Assembly: GCA_030917925.1 (NCBI GenBank)
Contig: JAUPTV010000162.1
Location: forward strand, 1-42,122
Direction: 5' to 3'
Length of the DNA stretch: 42,122 nt
From: Pseudomonadota bacterium
GTDB lineage: Bacteria; Pseudomonadota; Gammaproteobacteria; Competibacterales; Competibacteraceae
Shown here in pieces: positions 15,775 to 41,364 of this stretch. The translations under genes were made by a program, and so were the position numbers. Position 1 is the stretch's first letter. Each line of letters begins with the position of its first letter. The notes under the pieces were generated by a model, which saw nothing but the letters and a program-made list of their open reading frames with translations, did no database searches and was not told where the DNA came from.

Positions 15775-16113
15775 CCTCCTCCCCGCCCTGAAGGACGGGG
15801 ATTCCTGACTTCACAATTAGGGTTTTCTGTTTCATAGAGGATTGCCCAGAGGAGTTAAGGCTTGGTTTTCGCCGATTCGATTCCCCAGAGTGGGGAGTCT
15901 TACGCGGTTTGAACCGCAGCCGGAAACTCCCCCAGGTCTCACATCCTCTCCACAGACTTCACATCCCGCCAGCCCGGCGGTAGGTCTTGAATAGGAGACA
16001 GTGGTGATGTTACCCAAAAACGCGGCGCTTCAACAGTCCACGCAAGGGGGACTGCCGCGCCGCCCGCTATCCCTCCCCGCCCTAAAGGGCGAGGTTTCTC
16101 GCGGAAAATCTTG
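15771..16113. mobile_element. IS200/IS605-type remnant E1 between apaH and folA
   Basis: A 343-base non-autonomous remnant filling the whole apaH–folA gap. Read on the minus strand, its left end (16113 leftwards: CAAGATTTTCCGCGAGAAACC, then the hairpin CCTCGCCC...GGGCGGGG at 16075–16094) is the same as those of the elements at 31249 and 37709. Its right end (hairpin CCCCGTCC...GGGCGGGG at 15781–15800, then GGAGGAGGTCAA) resembles ends of TnpB-carrying IS200/IS605 elements. The base next to the left end is preceded by TTCAT, the reverse of folA's ATGAA. The interior holds a tnpB-like 3' remnant. No transposase gene. Ends judged by comparison within this window and from memory of the family. 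Confidence 0.7.
15832..16017 (-). pseudogene. Possible tnpB 3'-end remnant
   Basis: A minus-strand open frame inside element E1 whose middle reads PTAGLAGCEVCGEDVRPGG, resembling the C-terminal zinc-ribbon region of TnpB (a CxxC pair followed by DVRPG). Only about 40–60 codons remain, with no RuvC catalytic part, so it is a decayed end. It stops just before the right-end hairpin, where TnpB genes of this family normally end and where their omega RNA lies. Small hairpins (CCCCAGAGTGGGG; GCGGTT...AACCGC) could be remains of that RNA. Assignment rests on a short motif. Confidence 0.45.
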
Positions 16114-19891: not shown

Positions 19892-20068
19892 AAGTCCTCC
19901 CGAATATTCTGATTGGTGTGGAATCCCTCTGGAAAAAGCAGGCAGCGTTCGCTCGCGCCAAACGTATAGCTACGCCGCCTGTTGAAGACCCACCAACACC
20001 CCACATTGCTAACTCGTAGTATCAACCTGGCAAGATGAACATCGCCTGAATCTTTCAACAGAATTTAT

Positions 20069-20109
20069 CAGGTCTTGCGCGAAAGACCCCGTTCTTTAGT
20101 GCGGAGTAC
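20069..20109 (+). mobile_element. Degenerate left end of the same IS200/IS605-type family (E4)
   Basis: CAGGTCTTGCGCGAAAGACC followed by a decayed hairpin CCCCGTTCTTTAGTGCGGAG matches the terminal region of the elements at 37709 (CAGATGTTGCGCGAGAGACC) and 31249. It is preceded by TTTAT (20064–20068), close to the TTCAT of the other copies. Only about 40 bases remain, and the pseudopilin fragment begins directly after it. Confidence 0.55.
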
Positions 20110-20506
20110 GACGAATGTTTATGAACAAGGCAGGCTGCTGTACAACGACGTATCAGACCTGGCATTCAATGGCAACGCCAACTATAACGCCAGCGAAGAC
20201 ACCCTGATTCGCGTCGGCGAAGCTGCTGCTACCGAGATTACCCTGCGCAGCAACAGCGTCGGCAACGCCTGGCTGAGCTTCAAACCGACCGGTCGCCTGG
20301 CCGAAACCGAGGGCGCGGCGGTCTATGCGGTCTGCTACGACGGGGTATCAACCAGTCGCATACCGGGCCGCCAGATCACCGTAGACCTAACCACCCTGGC
20401 TTCTTATGGAGGACACGACGGGGGAGACGTATTCGGTGGTCGTGAACTCGCCGTCCGCACCCGCCCGACGCTATTGAGTATGATGTACCGCGCGTCTGGA
20501 GCATGA
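20075..20506 (+). pseudogene. Truncated FimT/GspH-type pseudopilin (C-terminal fragment)
   Basis: The open frame codes for a product whose middle (from VYEQGRLLYNDVSDLAFNGN through DTLIRVGEAAATEITLRSNS to AWLSFKPTGRLAETEG and PGRQITVDLTTL) matches the globular C-terminal domain of FimT/GspH minor pseudopilins. The N-terminal type IV pilin signal and helix (FTLxE) are missing: upstream sequence is instead the degenerate transposon end. The homology stops near 20400, after which the frame runs antisense through the end of the convergent intact fimT-like gene. The region with homology is therefore about 20118–20400. It looks like a gene cut by an insertion or rearrangement. A TTG is the only upstream start. 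Confidence 0.6.
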
Positions 20507-29075: not shown

Positions 29076-30068
29076 ATGGCCGCTAAACGCCCCTATCTGG
29101 AAGCCTTGGGCATCCCGCTGTGGACGCCGCGCCAGACCCTGGCTGTGCATCCGCAAATGGTGGTTGAAGCGCCGTTGGAGGAGCCAAACCACCCCGACCC
29201 TGCGGGCTGCGCCTCCTTAGCCAGTGAGTCAAACCACCCCGGCCCTACGGGCCACCCCTCCTTAACCAAGGAGGGGAATACCGGAGATTTGCCGCCAGTG
29301 GGAGAATCATCAGACTCCCCTCTCCCACCTGTGGGAGAGGGGTTGGGGGTGAGGGCCGATGCCTTGCCGCCGAATGACTGGGAGCCGCTGATGGATGACA
29401 ACTGGGAACCCGTGATGGAACTGGACACCACCGACTTTTCGCCGCCACCCGCGATCAGCCGGGCAGCGCGCATTACCCGGATGGACTGGGCGGAACTCAT
29501 GGCGGAAGCCCACCAGTGTCAGGCGTGTGGACTGTGTACGACCCGCACTCAGGTGGTTTTCGGCGTTGGCAACCGTCAGGCCGAATGGCTGGTGATCGGC
29601 GAAGCGCCGGGCGCGGATGAAGACCAGCAGGGCGAACCGTTCGTGGGACGGGCGGGTAAGTTACTGAATCCGATGCTGTTGGCGATTGGCCTGAAGCGGG
29701 AACAGGTCTATATCGCGAACATCCTGAAGTGCCGCCCTCCGGAGAATCGGGAACCTGCCCCGGAAGAAGCCGAAAAATGCCGGCCCTTTTTGGAACGGCA
29801 GATGGCATTGATCCGTCCGCGCATCATTCTCGCGGTCGGTCGGGTCGCCGCCCAGAATTTGTTGAACACCGATACGCCGATTGGCAAGCTGCGCGGCCAG
29901 GTGCATCGCTTTGGCCCCTCACGCATTCCCGTCGTCGTCACTTACCATCCCGCCTACTTGCTGCGCTCGCCACGCGAAAAACGTAAATCCTGGGATGATC
30001 TGCGCCTGGCCCGCCGAACGCTGGCGGCTGAACCGATGGATGCCGGCTGGGAACCGGCGGATTCATGA
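29076..30068 (+). CDS. Family 4 (Fe–S) uracil-DNA glycosylase with repeat-derived N-terminal insert
   Basis: Removes uracil from DNA. The catalytic domain (about residues 145–320) has [26 protein letters not shown] and [10 protein letters not shown]; four cysteines (CQACGLC, ILKC and EKCRPF) are placed as the 4Fe–4S ligands of this family. Residues about 37–93 are encoded by three palindromic repeat copies (29186–29229, 29231–29282, 29317–29355) that keep the frame open, giving low-complexity stretches such as [15 protein letters not shown] and [13 protein letters not shown] linker with repeated WEPLMDD/WEPVMEL follows. It starts six bases after leuA, and its stop overlaps the rimI start (ATGA). 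Confidence 0.9.
29186..29282. repeat. Tandem pair of CACCCCGGCCCT-type palindromic repeats inside a CDS
   Basis: Two adjacent copies, 29186–29229 and 29231–29282, share AAACCACCCCGRCCCT, CGGGC and the CCTCCTTA..CCA core; the second includes the full CCTCCTTaaccAAGGAGG hairpin. A third, diverged copy lies at 41313–41364. They are embedded in frame in the uracil-DNA glycosylase gene. Confidence 0.75.
29317..29355. repeat. CCCCTCTCCCAC...GTGGGAGAGGGG repeat, copy 1
   Basis: Perfect palindrome CCCCTCTCCCAC/GTGGGAGAGGGG around CT, followed by TTGGGGGTGAGGG. The same 39-base unit with one or two changes occurs at 32440–32478 in the same orientation. Here it encodes part of the glycosylase N-terminal insert. 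Confidence 0.8.
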
Positions 30069-30553
30069 CCCTATTGCCTGTCAGCGTAGCGCCGGAACTC
30101 GTCACCGGTGAATTCCGCAAGATGATTTACGCCGATTTGCGGGAAGTGATCCTGATCGAACACCGGGCCTATGAATTCTGCTGGACCGAGGGCATTTTTC
30201 GCGACTGCCTGCGGGCCGGCTATTACTGTCAGGTGCTGGCCGCGCCGAACGGGGGACGGATTCAGGGCTATGGCATTATGTCGGCGGCAGTGGGCGAGGC
30301 GCACATTTTCAATATTTGCGTGCGCCCGGAATTACAGGGACGCAGGTTAGCGCGGCGGGTTCTGGATCATCTGCTGGGGATTGCGCATACCGAGGCGGTT
30401 AAAACCGTGTTTCTGGAAGTGCGGGAATCCAATAAGCCCGCTCTGCGCCTCTACGCGGGGGCAGGTTTCTGCGAGATTGGTGTCCGTCCTGGCTATTACC
30501 CCGCCCCCAAGGGTCGTCGGGAAGACGCCATCATCATGGCCAGAGAACTCTAA
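30065..30553 (+). CDS. rimI: Ribosomal protein S18 N-alanine acetyltransferase-like (RimI, GNAT)
   Basis: GNAT-family acetyltransferase, 162 residues, of the RimI type that acetylates the N-terminus of S18. Motifs: DLREVILIEHRAYEFCWTEGIF near the N-terminus, acetyl-CoA-binding VRPELQGRRLARRVLDHLL (the Q/R-x-x-G/R loop) and ESNKPALRLYAGAGF, with GRREDAIIMAREL at the end. Its ATG overlaps the preceding stop by four bases, so it is coupled to the glycosylase gene. The stop overlaps the convergent bioD stop by four bases. Confidence 0.9.
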   Translation: MTLLPVSVAPELVTGEFRKMIYADLREVILIEHRAYEFCWTEGIFRDCLRAGYYCQVLAAPNGGRIQGYGIMSAAVGEAHIFNICVRPELQGRRLARRVLDHLLGIAHTEAVKTVFLEVRESNKPALRLYAGAGFCEIGVRPGYYPAPKGRREDAIIMAREL

Positions 30554-31248
30554 CCGCTCGCGGAAGCTGCCGCATCCACCGCGAATTCCCTTAACTTGGC
30601 CAACTGCAATGCACTGGCGGCCCGCACCGGACCGGTCCCGTAGGGCGTTATCCCTAGCAATGGCGCATCCAGCCGGGCGCACAGCGTCTCCACATTCGCT
30701 TCAAAGCGTACCATCGCCGGATCGATCCGGTTGGCGACCCAACCGGCCAGTCGTATGCCGCGTGACTGGATCGCCTCAACGGTCAACAGCGTGTGATTAA
30801 GGCAGCCCAGTCGCATCCCTACCACCAGAATCACCGGCAACGCCAGCGCCTGCACCAGGTCGGCCATATCCGTATGCTCGCCAAGCGGTGCCCGGAACCC
30901 ACCCACGCCTTCCACCCAAACGACTTCGGCCAATGCCTGCAACTGCTCGAAGGCTTGGCGAATCACCTCAATATCGATAGGACGCCCGGCTTCACGGGCG
31001 GCGATATGCGGCGATATGGGTGGAATGAACAAATAGGGATTGACCAGCGCCATCGGCGGCTGGATGGAACTGGCCGCCAGCAATTGGGTGATATCGCCAT
31101 TTTGCCCGTCATCCTCGACGCCTGCGGCAATCGGCTTCATGCCCACTGTCGTCAGACCTGACTGGCGGGTGGCGTGCAACAGGGCGCAGGCGACATGCGT
31201 TTTGCCGACGCCGGTATCGGTACCTGTTATGAAAAAAGCGTGTTTCAT
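30550..31248 (-). CDS. bioD: Dethiobiotin synthetase
   Basis: ATP-dependent closure of the ureido ring from 7,8-diaminopelargonate and CO2, the penultimate biotin step. The 232 residues begin MKHAFFITGTDTGVGKTHVA with the P-loop GTDTGVGKT; further blocks are KPIAAGVEDDG, EGVGGFRAPL and WVANRIDP. The ATGAA start is immediately preceded by the mobile element at 31249–31618, which now supplies the leader (GCGGAAAATCTG). Deleting the element would place bioD two bases after the bioC stop, so the element split a tight bioC–bioD junction. Confidence 0.95.
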   Translation of the reverse strand: MKHAFFITGTDTGVGKTHVACALLHATRQSGLTTVGMKPIAAGVEDDGQNGDITQLLAASSIQPPMALVNPYLFIPPISPHIAAREAGRPIDIEVIRQAFEQLQALAEVVWVEGVGGFRAPLGEHTDMADLVQALALPVILVVGMRLGCLNHTLLTVEAIQSRGIRLAGWVANRIDPAMVRFEANVETLCARLDAPLLGITPYGTGPVRAASALQLAKLREFAVDAAASASG

Positions 31249-31618
31249 CAGATTTTCCGCGAGAGACCCCGGCCTTCAGGCCGGGGAGGTAGAGCGAACC
31301 GTGCCACGCATGGTCAGCTTTTGATGTTAAGTGCCGGTCTTTCCCGGCTGTCCGCTCGTAAGAGCCTGGTCACGGAGCCTCGCGGCTCGCTCCCCTCGCC
31401 AAGGTTGCGTATCGGCATTTCGTCCCGATCCGTTTCGTGCTGACCCTGAGCGTGTCTGCAACCGGGACTTTCAGAGCCTGGGACTGAGGAAGCATCCCAG
31501 GGTGAGTCTTGAACCTATCCGCAACGTAGCCCCTTTTAACCTCCTTGTTAGGCGGGCTTAGGCTGGTCAACCGGGGCTTGCTCTCACAAGCCTCGCCCTT
31601 CAGGGCGGGGTAGTTGAC
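31249..31618. mobile_element. Non-autonomous IS200/IS605-type element E2 between bioC and bioD
   Basis: A 370-base element with terminal sequence CAGATTTTCCGCGAGAGACC followed by a GC-rich hairpin (CCCCGGCC...GGCCGGGG, about 31267–31286), and at the other end hairpin CCTCGCCC...GGGCGGGG (31591–31610) followed by TAGTTGAC. TTCAT (31244–31248) abuts the left end. About 245 bases of the interior match the element at 37709–38115. No coding sequence. It lies exactly between the bioC stop and the bioD start and disrupts neither. No target duplication is seen, as expected for IS200/IS605 transposition. Confidence 0.75.
31352..31618 (-). ncRNA. HEARO/IscB omega-RNA-like structured RNA in E2
   Basis: Interior block shared with E3. 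Three helices show compensatory changes between the copies: GCTC/GAGC (31354–31365) against GCCC/GGGC; CCTGGGA/TCCCAGG (31477–31501) against CTTGGGA/TCCCAAG; and a long-range GTTGCGTAT/ATCCGCAAC (31404–31525) against GTTGCGTAG/CTACGCAAC. On the minus strand it reads TGGGATGCTTCCTCAGTCCC, resembling HEARO/IscB omega RNA as I remember it. In that orientation the flank before it is the bioC end (guide position) and ATGA follows (TAM position). The nuclease gene is absent. Confidence 0.55.
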
Positions 31619-31620
31619 GT

Positions 31621-32490
31621 TCAATCTCCCTCGAATCTCTCACCCTGCCGCGTCGCGATCAGCCAAACGCCATCATAAGTCAGCGGGAGTCCCCTGGCTT
31701 CCCGTAACTGTTCGTAACGGGCGGTAATCGCCTGCCAGGCCGCACGACTGAACGGCGCAGGTCGCCGCTGTTCCACTTCGCGGGCGCCAACCGCCTTCAC
31801 CCGGCGTAATAAGGTACGCAAGTCGGGATAGTAGCGGCGCACCGGCTGCCGCTGCCAAAGCCGAACTTGCCACCCGCTGATTTGGCAGTTCGCCAGCAGT
31901 TGCTCAGGATCAGGAATCGCCAGTACATGACTGTAATCATCAATGTCCGCAAAAGCATGGTGCAACTCGGGAAAATTGTGAGTTCCCAGCGTCGCCACCG
32001 CCAGTATCCCGTCAGGTTTAAGCACCCGTCCAGCCTCGGTCAGGCATCGCATCGGATCGTTCCACTGCCAGGCCAAACTTGACCAGTACAGGTCAAATAG
32101 ACTCGCTGCGAACGGCAATGCCTCGATGTCGGCGCAAACCCGTCGCGCCTGGGGACTACGGGTATGTGAAGCAATTAACATGCCTGGAGCGAAATCAACG
32201 AGCGTCAGTTTGGCGTCCGGCCATTGTTGTTCCAGCCACTGAACGCCATAACCGGTGCCACAACCGGCATCGAGAATGGCGTCAGGGGAAGGAGCCAGGC
32301 CCGCTTGCGCGAAAGAGTGCGCCAACTGGTCGCACACCTCGCGCTGCACATCCGCCGCCTCGTCATAGGTGGTCGCTGCCTGATCAAAGGCTTGGCGAAT
32401 CCGCTGTTTACCCGGTAAAGCCGGGAGCAACCGTTCACTCCCCTCTCCCACAGGTGGGAGAGGGGTTGGGGGTGAGGGCGGTGGATTCAA
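31621..32490 (-). CDS. bioC: Malonyl-[ACP] O-methyltransferase BioC, start uncertain
   Basis: SAM-dependent methyltransferase that caps malonyl-ACP to start pimelate synthesis. Homology begins at KQRIRQAFDQAATTYDEAADVQ; the SAM motif is ILDAGCGTGYG, followed by DFAPGMLIASHTR and LYWSSLAWQWNDP. A TTG at 32490 overlaps the bioF stop (TTGA) and gives 289 residues; a GTG at 32451 would give 276; a longer frame to 32646 overlaps bioF. The region between start and homology is encoded by a palindromic repeat (32440–32478), so the native start has been blurred. No bioH-type esterase gene is next to it. Confidence 0.88.
   Translation of the reverse strand: MNPPPSPPTPLPPVGEGSERLLPALPGKQRIRQAFDQAATTYDEAADVQREVCDQLAHSFAQAGLAPSPDAILDAGCGTGYGVQWLEQQWPDAKLTLVDFAPGMLIASHTRSPQARRVCADIEALPFAASLFDLYWSSLAWQWNDPMRCLTEAGRVLKPDGILAVATLGTHNFPELHHAFADIDDYSHVLAIPDPEQLLANCQISGWQVRLWQRQPVRRYYPDLRTLLRRVKAVGAREVEQRRPAPFSRAAWQAITARYEQLREARGLPLTYDGVWLIATRQGERFEGD
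32440..32478. repeat. CCCCTCTCCCAC...GTGGGAGAGGGG repeat, copy 2
   Basis: Near-identical to 29317–29355 and in the same orientation, including the trailing TTGGGGGTGAGGG. It falls at the bioF–bioC junction and codes for the first residues of the bioC frame ([11 protein letters not shown] on the minus strand). Confidence 0.8.
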
Positions 32491-34653: not shown

Positions 34654-34720
34654 GCCTAACGTGGAGTTGAGGTACCTGCGCGGCTTTACCACGCAGGTCG
34701 CCTCGAACGCAGGGTTAGAG
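34654..34720 (-). other. Integron attC site 1
   Basis: In cassette orientation: R'' CTCTAAC (34720–34714), CCTGC, L'' GTTCGAGG, inner stem ACCTGCG/CGCAGGT, L' CCTCAA, CTCCA, R' GTTAGGC (34660–34654). L'' TTCGAGG pairs with CCTCAA leaving one unpaired C, the same extrahelical base position as in typical attC sites. Length 67 bases. The HNH gene stop codon lies inside R'', as is common for cassette genes. Confidence 0.88.
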
Positions 34721-35413
34721 ATCATGGGTACCCTTTCCGCGATTGCATTCAAAACAGAGTGTCCACAAGTTGTTCTCGGCGTTTGTGCCGCCCTTTGCGA
34801 TGGCGATCTTGTGATCAATCTCTAGCCTGCTGCCTTCTTCGGCAGACGCCCCACAAATGCAGCACCGATATGAATCCCGTTTGAAGATCGCAAAGCGCTG
34901 AGTAACCGATATACCAGCCCGCACCTTTCCCTTCGCCTTAAATTCGGTGCAAGCCTCATCGAAGGCTAGGATCGCCTCAGATGCGGCACGCTTGAGGAGC
35001 AAGTAGCTTCTTATGTATTCGAGTGAACTCGTTGTCCGCGGGAATGATTGGTCACGCTCCACGTCACATGAAAAGTCACCAATTGGATCGTCGCGTTTGG
35101 TTTGCCGAAGAAGCCAACGGTAGAACTGACTCCTTGCGACCTTCTCAGCCTTAACGTCAGCGACTGCCTTCTCGGCAATGATGTTTTCGACATTGGATGG
35201 ACGGTGAAACTTTGAGTTTGGTTTTTTCGCGTAGCGCTCCCAAGATCGAAGTGACTGCTCGTATCTCTGTGCACGAGTTGAAACGTGATCGGCATCTTCA
35301 AAGTGCTGCGCAGGCTCGAACAAGTCGCAACGTGCGCAGTAGTACATATCTGACATTTCTTCATGATGGTCGCCATGCACGTAATAACGGGTATGTGCGG
35401 AGTGTTGGATCAT
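34715..35413 (-). CDS. HNH endonuclease with YozE/SAM-like domain (cassette gene)
   Basis: 232 residues. An N-terminal CARC pair (around residue 25) is followed by a charged region, then a YozE-SAM-like domain (FYRWLLRQTKRDDPIGDFSCDVERD..., about 95–160) and a C-terminal HNH domain (RFAIFKRDSYRCCICGA, LEIDHKIAIAKGG, NLWTLCFECNRGKG; about 172–232). The HNH residues and the zinc CxxC pairs are intact, so nuclease activity is likely; target unknown, possibly defence-related. A palindromic AT-rich region (35424–35459) directly upstream may hold its promoter. The stop sits inside attC site 1, making this the first cassette of the island. Confidence 0.88.
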   Translation of the reverse strand: MIQHSAHTRYYVHGDHHEEMSDMYYCARCDLFEPAQHFEDADHVSTRAQRYEQSLRSWERYAKKPNSKFHRPSNVENIIAEKAVADVKAEKVARSQFYRWLLRQTKRDDPIGDFSCDVERDQSFPRTTSSLEYIRSYLLLKRAASEAILAFDEACTEFKAKGKVRAGISVTQRFAIFKRDSYRCCICGASAEEGSRLEIDHKIAIAKGGTNAENNLWTLCFECNRGKGTHDL

Positions 35414-36931: not shown

Positions 36932-37708
36932 CTACGAGGTTTCAAACACACTGGGCGAAACGGCGGGCAATGACTTAAATCCGGGTTTGGCGAAATAATA
37001 ACCCTGAAATAATTCAACTCCGAAATCGCGAAGAGTACCGAATTCTTCACGAGTTTCGACGCCTTCAGCAATCACTTTTACTGATAATTCCCGGCAGACT
37101 TGCAAGATACCCCGGACAATAATTTTCCGAGTGCGATCTTGGTCGATATTGCGTATTAAAGCCATATCCAGTTTAACAATATCTGTCTGTATCTCGCAAA
37201 GCAGATTGAGACCGGCATAACCCGCGCCAAAATCGTCGATGGCGGTCTGAAAACCACGCTGCTTGTAGTAATCAACGATTTCTCGAAGATGGATAAGATC
37301 ATCCACTTTCTCGCTTTCAACAATCTCGAAAATGATTTTATCAATGGGAAATCCAAAGATATCAGCCGCTTCCAGGGTCGTGCGGATACATCGCTCAGGT
37401 TGATAGACCGCATTGGGCATGAAGTTAATACTTAAGAGAGATGGAATTTTAAGATCAGCAGCGAGTTCAATGGCTTTAACGCGGCAACCCTGGTCAAACT
37501 GGTAGCGATTCTGATCATTAACCTGGGTAAAAATCTGTCCTGCTGATTCGTTATTGACACCACGAACCAGCGCTTCATAAGCGAAAACTTCTTTGGTTGC
37601 AGTGCTGACAATCGGTTGAAAAGCCATAGTAAAATCGAAGTCCAGCCCTGTTTCATTGGTGCATTTTCCACAACCGGACGAGCAACGATCTTTTTCCTGC
37701 GTATTCAT
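36932..37708 (-). CDS. EAL-domain cyclic-di-GMP phosphodiesterase with N-terminal Cys cluster
   Basis: 258-residue cytoplasmic EAL protein that probably hydrolyses c-di-GMP to pGpG. The EAL motif is YEALVRG; metal- and substrate-binding residues are present in SINFMPNA, FEIVESE, IDDFGAGYAG, VKLDMAL, VIAEGVET and FQGYYFAKP, so it looks catalytically competent. There is no GGDEF or sensory domain, but residues 9–16 form a CSSGCGKC cluster that could bind a metal or sense redox. The ATGAA start is abutted by element E3. Placement between the DHH gene and bioA, inside a biotin cluster, is unusual. Confidence 0.93.
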   Translation of the reverse strand: MNTQEKDRCSSGCGKCTNETGLDFDFTMAFQPIVSTATKEVFAYEALVRGVNNESAGQIFTQVNDQNRYQFDQGCRVKAIELAADLKIPSLLSINFMPNAVYQPERCIRTTLEAADIFGFPIDKIIFEIVESEKVDDLIHLREIVDYYKQRGFQTAIDDFGAGYAGLNLLCEIQTDIVKLDMALIRNIDQDRTRKIIVRGILQVCRELSVKVIAEGVETREEFGTLRDFGVELFQGYYFAKPGFKSLPAVSPSVFETS

Positions 37709-38115
37709 CAGATGTTGCGCGAGAGACCTCGCCCTTTAGGGCGGGGAGGGATAGCGCGGAACGCGAAGCGTTCCCCTGTTCTCGCTCTCCTGTTTTGTTA
37801 GCTATCAGGGTTAGATAGATGCAGGCTTTCCACCTGCCGGGTCGTGAGACTCTGCCCCGTAAAGGGCCTAGTGACGGAGCCTTGCGGCTCGCTCCCCTCG
37901 CCAATGTTGCGTAGCGGCATTACACCCTAATCCGTTTCGTGCTTACCCTTTGCGTGTCTGCAACCAGGGCTTCTAGAGCTTGGGACTGAGGAAGCATCCC
38001 AAGGTAGGTCTTGAACCTCTACGCAACGTAGCCCCTTTTAACCTCCCTGTTAGGCGGGCTTAGGCTGGTCAATCAGGCTCTTGCAAGCCTCGCCCTTTAG
38101 GGCGGGGTGATTGAC
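37709..38115. mobile_element. Non-autonomous IS200/IS605-type element E3 upstream of the EAL gene
   Basis: A 407-base element with left end CAGATGTTGCGCGAGAGACC plus hairpin CCTCGCCC...GGGCGGGG (about 37727–37746), and right hairpin CCTCGCCC...GGGCGGGG (38088–38107) followed by TGATTGAC. TTCAT (37704–37708) abuts the left end. The interior from about 37845 matches E2; the 37750–37845 part is different. No gene. It and the following 88 bases (38116–38203, with a perfect 8-base-pair hairpin at 38167–38187) fill the gap to the DHH gene. Confidence 0.75.
37850..38115 (-). ncRNA. HEARO/IscB omega-RNA-like structured RNA in E3
   Basis: Same fold as in E2 with compensatory differences: GCCC/GGGC (37854–37867), CTTGGGA/TCCCAAG (37979–38003) and long-range GTTGCGTAG/CTACGCAAC (37906–38027). 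An invariant GAGCC/GGCTC helix (about 37878–37891) is common to both. Minus-strand orientation places ATGAA, the EAL start, directly after the element and the sequence near 38116–38135 at the guide position. Identification is from motif memory plus covariation of two copies. Confidence 0.55.
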
Positions 38116-41312: not shown

Positions 41313-41364
41313 CGAACCACTCCGGCGCTTCGCGCCACCCCTCCTTGGCCAATGAGGGGAATTC
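41313..41364. repeat. Third copy of the AACCACYCCGG...CCTCCTT repeat
   Basis: AACCACTCCGGCGCTTCGCG followed by CCACCCCTCCTTGGCCAATGAGGGGAATTC (written in two parts) aligns with the repeats at 29186–29282. Here it is intergenic, between azlD and the RNase II-like gene. It keeps the internal palindrome CGGCGCTTCGCGCC. Confidence 0.65.

Follow-up and report, generated by a model that had tools for sequence, protein, structure and literature searches.

A non-autonomous HEARO/IscB-type element between bioC and bioD, and its family at start codons in a Competibacteraceae genome

In the genome of a member of the Competibacteraceae, bioC and bioD are separated by a 370-bp block that ends directly at the bioD start codon. 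What this block is, how it came to lie there and how the gene behind it might tolerate it are the questions addressed here, based on a stretch of 42,122 nucleotides (the window), its source genome and further genomes and plasmids. A preliminary description of the same DNA had proposed a HEARO/IscB omega RNA without its nuclease but with a matching guide and TAM. The block, here called E2, is a strong and real non-autonomous HEARO element, known in kind. Its parts, its neighbours and two further elements of the window are the following.

31249..31618, minus strand: E2, the whole non-autonomous HEARO/IscB-type element, 370 bp, in the bioC/bioD gap, delimited by the empty site in the congener G005 and by ends common to other copies
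31384..31618, minus strand: HEARO / omega RNA scaffold of E2 (RF02033, 124.1 bits)
31619..31634, minus strand: predicted E2 guide, TCGAGGGAGATTGAAC, comprising the bioC end with its stop codon and native bioD leader
31243..31248, minus strand: predicted E2 TAM, ATGAAA, read from the sequence and also the bioD start
31591..31610, minus strand: subterminal hairpin at the guide-side end of E2, CCCCGCCCTGAAGGGCGAGG, read from the sequence
31267..31286, minus strand: subterminal hairpin at the bioD-side end of E2, CCCCGGCCTGAAGGCCGGGG, likewise
31255..31258, minus strand: GGAA, a weak Shine-Dalgarno-like core in the E2 end, six bases 5' of the bioD ATG
30550..31248, minus strand: bioD, frame open from the ATG directly 3' of E2
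31621..32486, minus strand: bioC, start coordinate provisional, stop codon within the predicted E2 guide
37709..38115, minus strand: E3, a second HEARO element, directly 5' of the start codon of an EAL-like gene
37886..38115, minus strand: E3 omega RNA (RF02033, 121.8 bits)
36932-37708: EAL-like gene behind E3, named from its translation
15775..16113, plus strand: E1, a related element with a near-identical right end, directly 5' of the folA start (16114), left boundary approximate

Identity and exact insertion of E2

The Rfam model RF02033 matched the minus strand of E2 completely (model 1-211) with 124.1 bits and an E-value of 2.2e-25 (cmscan at the gathering threshold; cut-off 83), which bears out the HEARO identity proposed earlier, and the HEARO-like minus-strand motif that had been pointed out, TGGGATGCTTCCTCAGTCCC, falls within this match. 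The earlier start at 31352 is to be corrected, since this position is internal to the element, which extends to 31249, whereas the omega RNA match stops at 31384. On the minus strand E2 reads GTCAACTACCCC ... TCGCGGAAAATCTG, with one hairpin near each end, and it is flanked by CGAGGGAGATTGAAC (the bioC end, stop included) and then by ATGAAACACG (the bioD start). When 10 of the genome's 15 copies were aligned, 15 of the 51 consensus pairs carried pair-keeping changes on both sides, and the compensatory changes noticed in the helices of E2 and E3 are thus real. Since so many pairs are kept by double changes and the scaffold reaches 124 bits, the RNA has been under selection in the family of E2.

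A relative with an empty bioC-bioD junction was looked for and found. BioD was searched in 40 genomes including the source genome, 35 of them gave a match, and the closest was that of G005, whose junction is empty and reads ...AAAGGGGATTGAAC|ATGAAACAC. Joining the flanks of E2 gives ...CGAGGGAGATTGAAC|ATGAAACACG, in agreement with the precise insertion at bioC-bioD that had been suggested. Empty leaders in G005 were alignable for bioD, sucC, corC and mdh; the remaining genes whose left flank is known had leaders that could not be aligned by eye. At sucC, the 29 bases 5' of the ATG are identical between the left flank of the element and G005, and among the last 16 leader bases 12 are identical at bioD, 13 at corC and 11 at mdh. 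Zero bases were gained or lost at these four sites, as would be expected from IS200/IS605-type elements, with which E2 shares exact insertion without target duplication as well as subterminal hairpins. HEARO matches were absent from five other genomes of the genus (two of them less than 80% complete). A conserved bioC-bioD leader is ruled out by the empty junction of the closest congener and by the HEARO count of 0/5 among the congeners.

The source genome contains 15 HEARO matches, 13 of them above the cut-off, so that the further copies of the structure that were looked for do exist. A search for iscB elsewhere in the genome was equally successful: IscB exceeded the cut-off on three contigs with 450.7 bits (C157), 448.8 bits (C207) and 332.2 bits (C239, where the gene is cut by the contig end). 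On the first two, an omega RNA lies directly 5' of iscB, which is the arrangement of known elements. The description of E2 as lacking its nuclease therefore stands locally, as iscB is absent from its 370 bp, and falls genome-wide with two full-length iscB genes and one contig-cut copy. The IscB sequences contain what look like RuvC- and HNH-like motifs, and their nearest named relatives are from a Competibacteraceae and an unclassified gammaproteobacterial bin. There are also three Y1 transposase genes (on C38, C69 and C180), two of which adjoin ATAA and not ATGA; none of the three has ends exactly matching those of E2. Because the genome holds 15 HEARO matches, iscB genes and three Y1 transposases, E2 is to be regarded as non-autonomous and not as an orphan. 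An orphan RNA in a cell without any nuclease is ruled out by the iscB genes. Elsewhere in the window, 34706-34900 gives a weak IscB-profile match (44.6 bits, below the cut-off) that reaches into a 232-aa frame and is probably a generic HNH gene.

Start codons behind the elements

In all 11 elements of the source genome that are defined by omega RNA or iscB and whose right end is intact and on the contig, ATGA follows the element (11/11); the end finder required RTGA for these elements, and inspection by eye revealed no other intact end that had been missed. The count leaves out four contig-cut HEARO matches (L004, L006, L008, L014) and one remnant (L015), the last being among the decayed copies together with those on C154 and C162. 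The usual right end reads GCGGA(A/G)AATCTG|ATGA, and a right-end pattern search with at most 3 mismatches located 27 places, against 0 for a reversed-pattern control. As the pattern contains ATGA, this search cannot measure the preference for ATGA itself.

At 21 of the 27 right ends, the ATG of the ATGA itself begins an open frame of 60 aa or more, the genes (named from translations) including bioD, mdh, sucC, corC, leuB, nadE, gltX, a CoA-transferase and the EAL-like gene as well as others. One of the six remaining ends, L066 (55 aa), precedes a duplicate of the L081 gene, and beyond the 27 the iscB copy on C239 adjoins recD and E1 adjoins folA. Fifteen of the 21 starts are supported by an orthologue, residue 1 falling on a start codon in at least one of three congeners, which also holds for recD and folA; of the other six, L065 and L079 align only past residue 1 and four have no orthologue there. 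For comparison, 90 of 327 ATGA of any kind in the window open such a frame, and 12 of 35 noncoding ones do so under hand-edited gene calls. Against the noncoding expectation, 21/27 gives P 5e-6, an excess that rests partly on the frames of at least 60 aa, while the orthologue-verified starts alone (15/27) give P 0.02. Non-start ATGA in the sense direction within 60 bases upstream of a gene numbers three in the window, so that, on these small counts, a placement in sense direction, in a leader and outside genes would alone lead one to expect start codons for the most part. The HEARO family of the source genome sits at start codons, which goes beyond what the preliminary description had put forward.

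Among related sequences of the window, E1 has no HEARO match and its left end differs. A degenerate right end at 20064-20116 (minus strand) is followed by ATAA instead of ATGA, as behind the Y1 genes on C69 and C180. The ATAA-flanked ends of those two contigs have CTTTCGC in place of CTCTCGC, with one exception on C95, and this replacement is possibly a guide-target covariation of the transposase. Two short repeat families occur at 29187-29279 and 41315-41362 and at 29314-29356 and 32437-32479; sequence resembling the first also precedes right ends at other places in the genome (L062, L066).

A class-wide search with stricter filters covered 369 genomes, the source genome included, and gave HEARO matches in 14, of which G140 (129 matches), G255 (69) and G352 (37) were rich in copies. 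The 129 matches of G140 lie in a 3.7-Mb genome and fall into several subfamilies with GTGA and ATGA flanks. From five genomes we examined 61 loci, a subset of all copies (30 from G140, 16 of 69 from G255, 13 from G352). In G255, 9 of 15 ATGA ends begin a frame of 60 aa or more (P 0.002 against its own flanks), and one further end, with GTGA, has none. For G352, a subfamily end pattern applied to the 13 loci gave nine ends with ATGA, one with ATCA (L203) and three cut by the contig; seven of the nine ATGA ends open a frame, metH-, hupB-, accC- and kaiB-like starts (named from translations) among them, compared with 74 of 239 ATGA in the flanks with a frame of 60 aa or more. In G140 a frame opens at 3 of 7 ATGA-type and at 1 of 11 GTGA-type ends, the latter sole frame (L217) running through an apparent second element, and the GTGA type thus shows no start-codon bias. 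For 11 of the 30 loci in G140 and 10 of the 13 in G352 the automatic finder gave no right end, and a misplaced one (L218) in G140 was omitted. One locus each was examined from G009 and G257, with a frame opening at the end in either case (403 and 78 aa, respectively). The GTGA type of G140 (1/11) rules out that start-codon residence holds universally for HEARO.

Of 36 IscB loci on named contigs, 17 were examined in their downstream DNA and ten of these gave a reading. Seven adjoin a start (L085, L086, L087, L101, L113, L114, L115, with L085 and L114 identical in the sequence shown), and at L084, L090 and L096 the end is readable but no start adjoins it. In the Methylococcaceae contig of L087, a frame resembling a Y1 transposase follows iscB after 5602 and precedes the element end, and this locus is possibly a complete autonomous element. 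An IscB relative was also found in 80 plasmid records, 30 of which were examined; they represent 28 independent sites, 26 of them annotated. Judged by eye beside annotated starts and without empty sites, the annotated next gene starts at the apparent element end in 13 of the 26 (P 0.07; one ATGG), the other 13 having no start at the end and several of these lacking a recognisable end. Both records without local annotation show a frame at the element end (51 or 115 aa; 2/2). Two of the 13 annotated cases come from Deinococcus and Trichormus plasmids, and hence from two phyla, where iscB separates parA from parB, inserted at the start of the latter (L253, L255). Matches to E2 itself were partial in 7 plasmid records; phage records contained no E2-like DNA and viral contigs no exact core pattern.

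Guide, TAM and element ends

A guide of about 17 nt on the 5' side and an NNRR TAM for OgeuIscB are given in PMC9640706, which also puts the need of OgeuIscB at about 14 TAM-proximal matches; PMC9581776 gives an NTGA-type TAM for DtIsrB and NTGA or NTG for several IsrB. The 3' flank of E2 is ATGAAA, the start codon of bioD, and the predicted guide would consist of the bioC end and the native ribosome-binding site. The proposed geometry of a 5' guide and a 3' TAM is consistent with these systems, as ATGA fits both NNRR and the NTGA type (PMC9640706 and PMC9581776). At the empty site the guide is followed by ATGA, and at the filled site by GTCA, which fits neither. In the original description of HEARO, the 3' flank is reportedly ATGA or GTGA. 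The guide differs from the empty bioD site of G005 by three mismatches within 14 bases, and cutting of that site across species is therefore unlikely. In the source genome itself, no second target with the 14-base guide end followed by ATGA was found at up to 2 mismatches, which rules out a second target of that kind in the genome. From the sequence, empty alleles of the own or a very close strain are plausible targets of E2.

The element end that now precedes each gene was compared with the 16S end. Predicted duplex energies are -3.5 kcal/mol for GGAA, -6.6 for GGAG and -9.5 for GGAGG, with a background mean of -3.3; the mdh and EAL copies have no GGA-type core (about +1.8 kcal/mol), and E2's own end has only GGAA, whose -3.5 kcal/mol is about the background mean. 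The three GGAGG ends belong to copies in which the 480 bases examined contain no intact omega RNA, and of the one on C154, 5' of a sugar-nucleotide gene, about the last 20 bases remain. Apparent fossils of roughly the last 20 bases lie directly 5' of an ATG at C154, C162, C17:2885, C290 and C109/C256 (loci L082, L061, L057, L079 and L081/L066, respectively), the frame behind those on C162 and C17 being short; these tails look as if they had been kept as a ribosome-binding site. Shine-Dalgarno-like ends occur in several phyla, a GGAG- or GAGG-like core being present at the equivalent place in G352, G257, G009, Methylococcaceae, a viral contig, Deinococcus, Trichormus, Chroococcidiopsis, Anabaena and Nostoc. 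It is absent from the Polaromonas, Cupriavidus, Pseudomonas and Allochromatium copies, in three of which the stop codon annotated for iscB and the following ATG share bases (TGATG). The idea of a universal ribosome-binding end is weakened by the mdh, EAL, Polaromonas, Cupriavidus, Pseudomonas and Allochromatium ends, which have no core. The ends may work in translation.

Mechanism, alternatives and meaning

Taken together, these data make it probable that E2 is mobilised in trans, that its guide RNA comes from a host promoter and lets IscB cut the empty site, and that the element end has replaced the leader. A Y1 transposase acting in trans would have placed E2 directly 5' of ATGA. As this ATGA is the bioD start codon, E2 is sense-oriented in the bioC-bioD leader, and the bioC promoter could therefore transcribe guide and omega RNA. 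IscB from another copy would bind the E2 RNA and cut empty bioC-bioD chromosomes beside the ATGA TAM, the filled site being spared because GTCA follows the guide there, and such cutting would favour the retention or spread of E2. The bioD-side end, with its purine-rich GGAA core and a terminal TG giving TGATG, would stand in for the displaced leader, keeping bioD translatable.

Several other explanations have to be weighed against this one. E2 could be an inert, MITE-like remnant that was moved by the transposase alone, its omega RNA unused and other sites purged by selection, which would agree with the decay of several copies (L015, C154, C162), with the need to avoid coding interiors and with noncoding ATGA falling at a start codon about one time in three by chance. 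However, 15 of 51 pairs kept by double changes and a scaffold of 124 bits, two full-length iscB genes in the genome and a start-codon fraction above the noncoding-ATGA expectation in the source genome argue against inertness, and we consider it unlikely. A domesticated cis-regulatory leader of bioD, riboswitch-like or an attenuator, would account for a structured RNA in the bioD 5' leader, but the same RNA lies 5' of the unrelated mdh, sucC, corC, leuB and EAL-like genes, the junction of the closest congener is empty and none of the five congeners has a match, leaving this the least credible of the explanations. Hardly more probable is a trans-acting regulatory guide, of which TldR guides are examples, by which IscB would bind and not cut at another promoter or leader. 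Such a role would suit a guide that equals leader sequence and could be permitted by the architecture of RNA and IscB; against it stand the lack of a second genomic site for the 14-base guide end plus ATGA at up to 2 mismatches and the RuvC- and HNH-like motifs of IscB, which were read without alignment.

The start-codon bias might also reflect target choice by the transposase, for example of single-stranded DNA at transcribed leaders, and not a need for a promoter, an explanation compatible with the rest of the proposed mechanism. Y1 transposases use single-stranded DNA, and the bias extends to copies without a Shine-Dalgarno-like end, but the GTGA family of G140 lacks it and the left flanks, by eye, show no target bases beyond ATGA; we regard target choice as a serious though rather unlikely explanation. 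The bias may stem from the purging of insertions elsewhere or from a preference of the transposase for certain targets.

Compared with the HEARO RNA RF02033 and IscB omega RNA, E2 has the same scaffold above the cut-off, the same guide in the 5' flank and ATGA in the 3' flank, and relatives 5' of iscB; it differs in that it has no iscB and in that, for most right ends here, ATGA is a start codon. With the IscB elements of the IS200/IS605 group it further shares subterminal hairpins and, at the four comparable sites, the absence of target duplication, and as far as the accessible parts of the papers on OgeuIscB (PMC9640706), IsrB (PMC9581776) and HEARO nucleases (PMC9755519) go, also the 5' guide and the NNRR/NTGA-type TAM. 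Unlike those elements, E2 is non-autonomous, and the same parts of PMC9640706, PMC9581776 and PMC9755519 describe neither start-codon residence nor ribosome-binding-like ends. No description of start-codon residence was found in the literature searched, a scope that the original HEARO, IscB and ISC papers fall outside. Ktedonobacter racemifer is said to carry standalone omega RNAs beside its IscB copies. Many guide RNAs with few nucleases would be common to both organisms, whereas in the genome analysed here transposon ends flank the RNAs and abut coding starts.

With regard to the family as a whole, HEARO/IscB elements may be promoter borrowers adapted to start codons, whose ends replace the ribosome-binding site or couple translation through TGATG and whose old copies persist as tails; we put this forward tentatively, leaning slightly against it. 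In this view the TAM/target ATGA would serve at once as start codon plus A, and the 5' guide would be host leader together with its ribosome-binding site. As the guide lies 5' of the scaffold, geometry implies that the promoter would have to come from flanking host DNA. A start-codon ATGA belongs to a transcribed leader and has the right orientation, so that residence there would supply the promoter. The element end or translational coupling would limit the damage to the host gene, and replacement ribosome-binding ends or TGATG coupling in many lineages could let essential genes tolerate the insertion. If true, this would settle from where the promoter of a 5'-guide omega RNA comes and explain why the TAMs of the HEARO/IscB group look like start codons. 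Further, it would show how such elements can live 5' of housekeeping genes, among them mdh, sucC, gltX and folA, and would provide experimental work with naturally occurring pairs of guide and target and with natural ribosome-binding ends.
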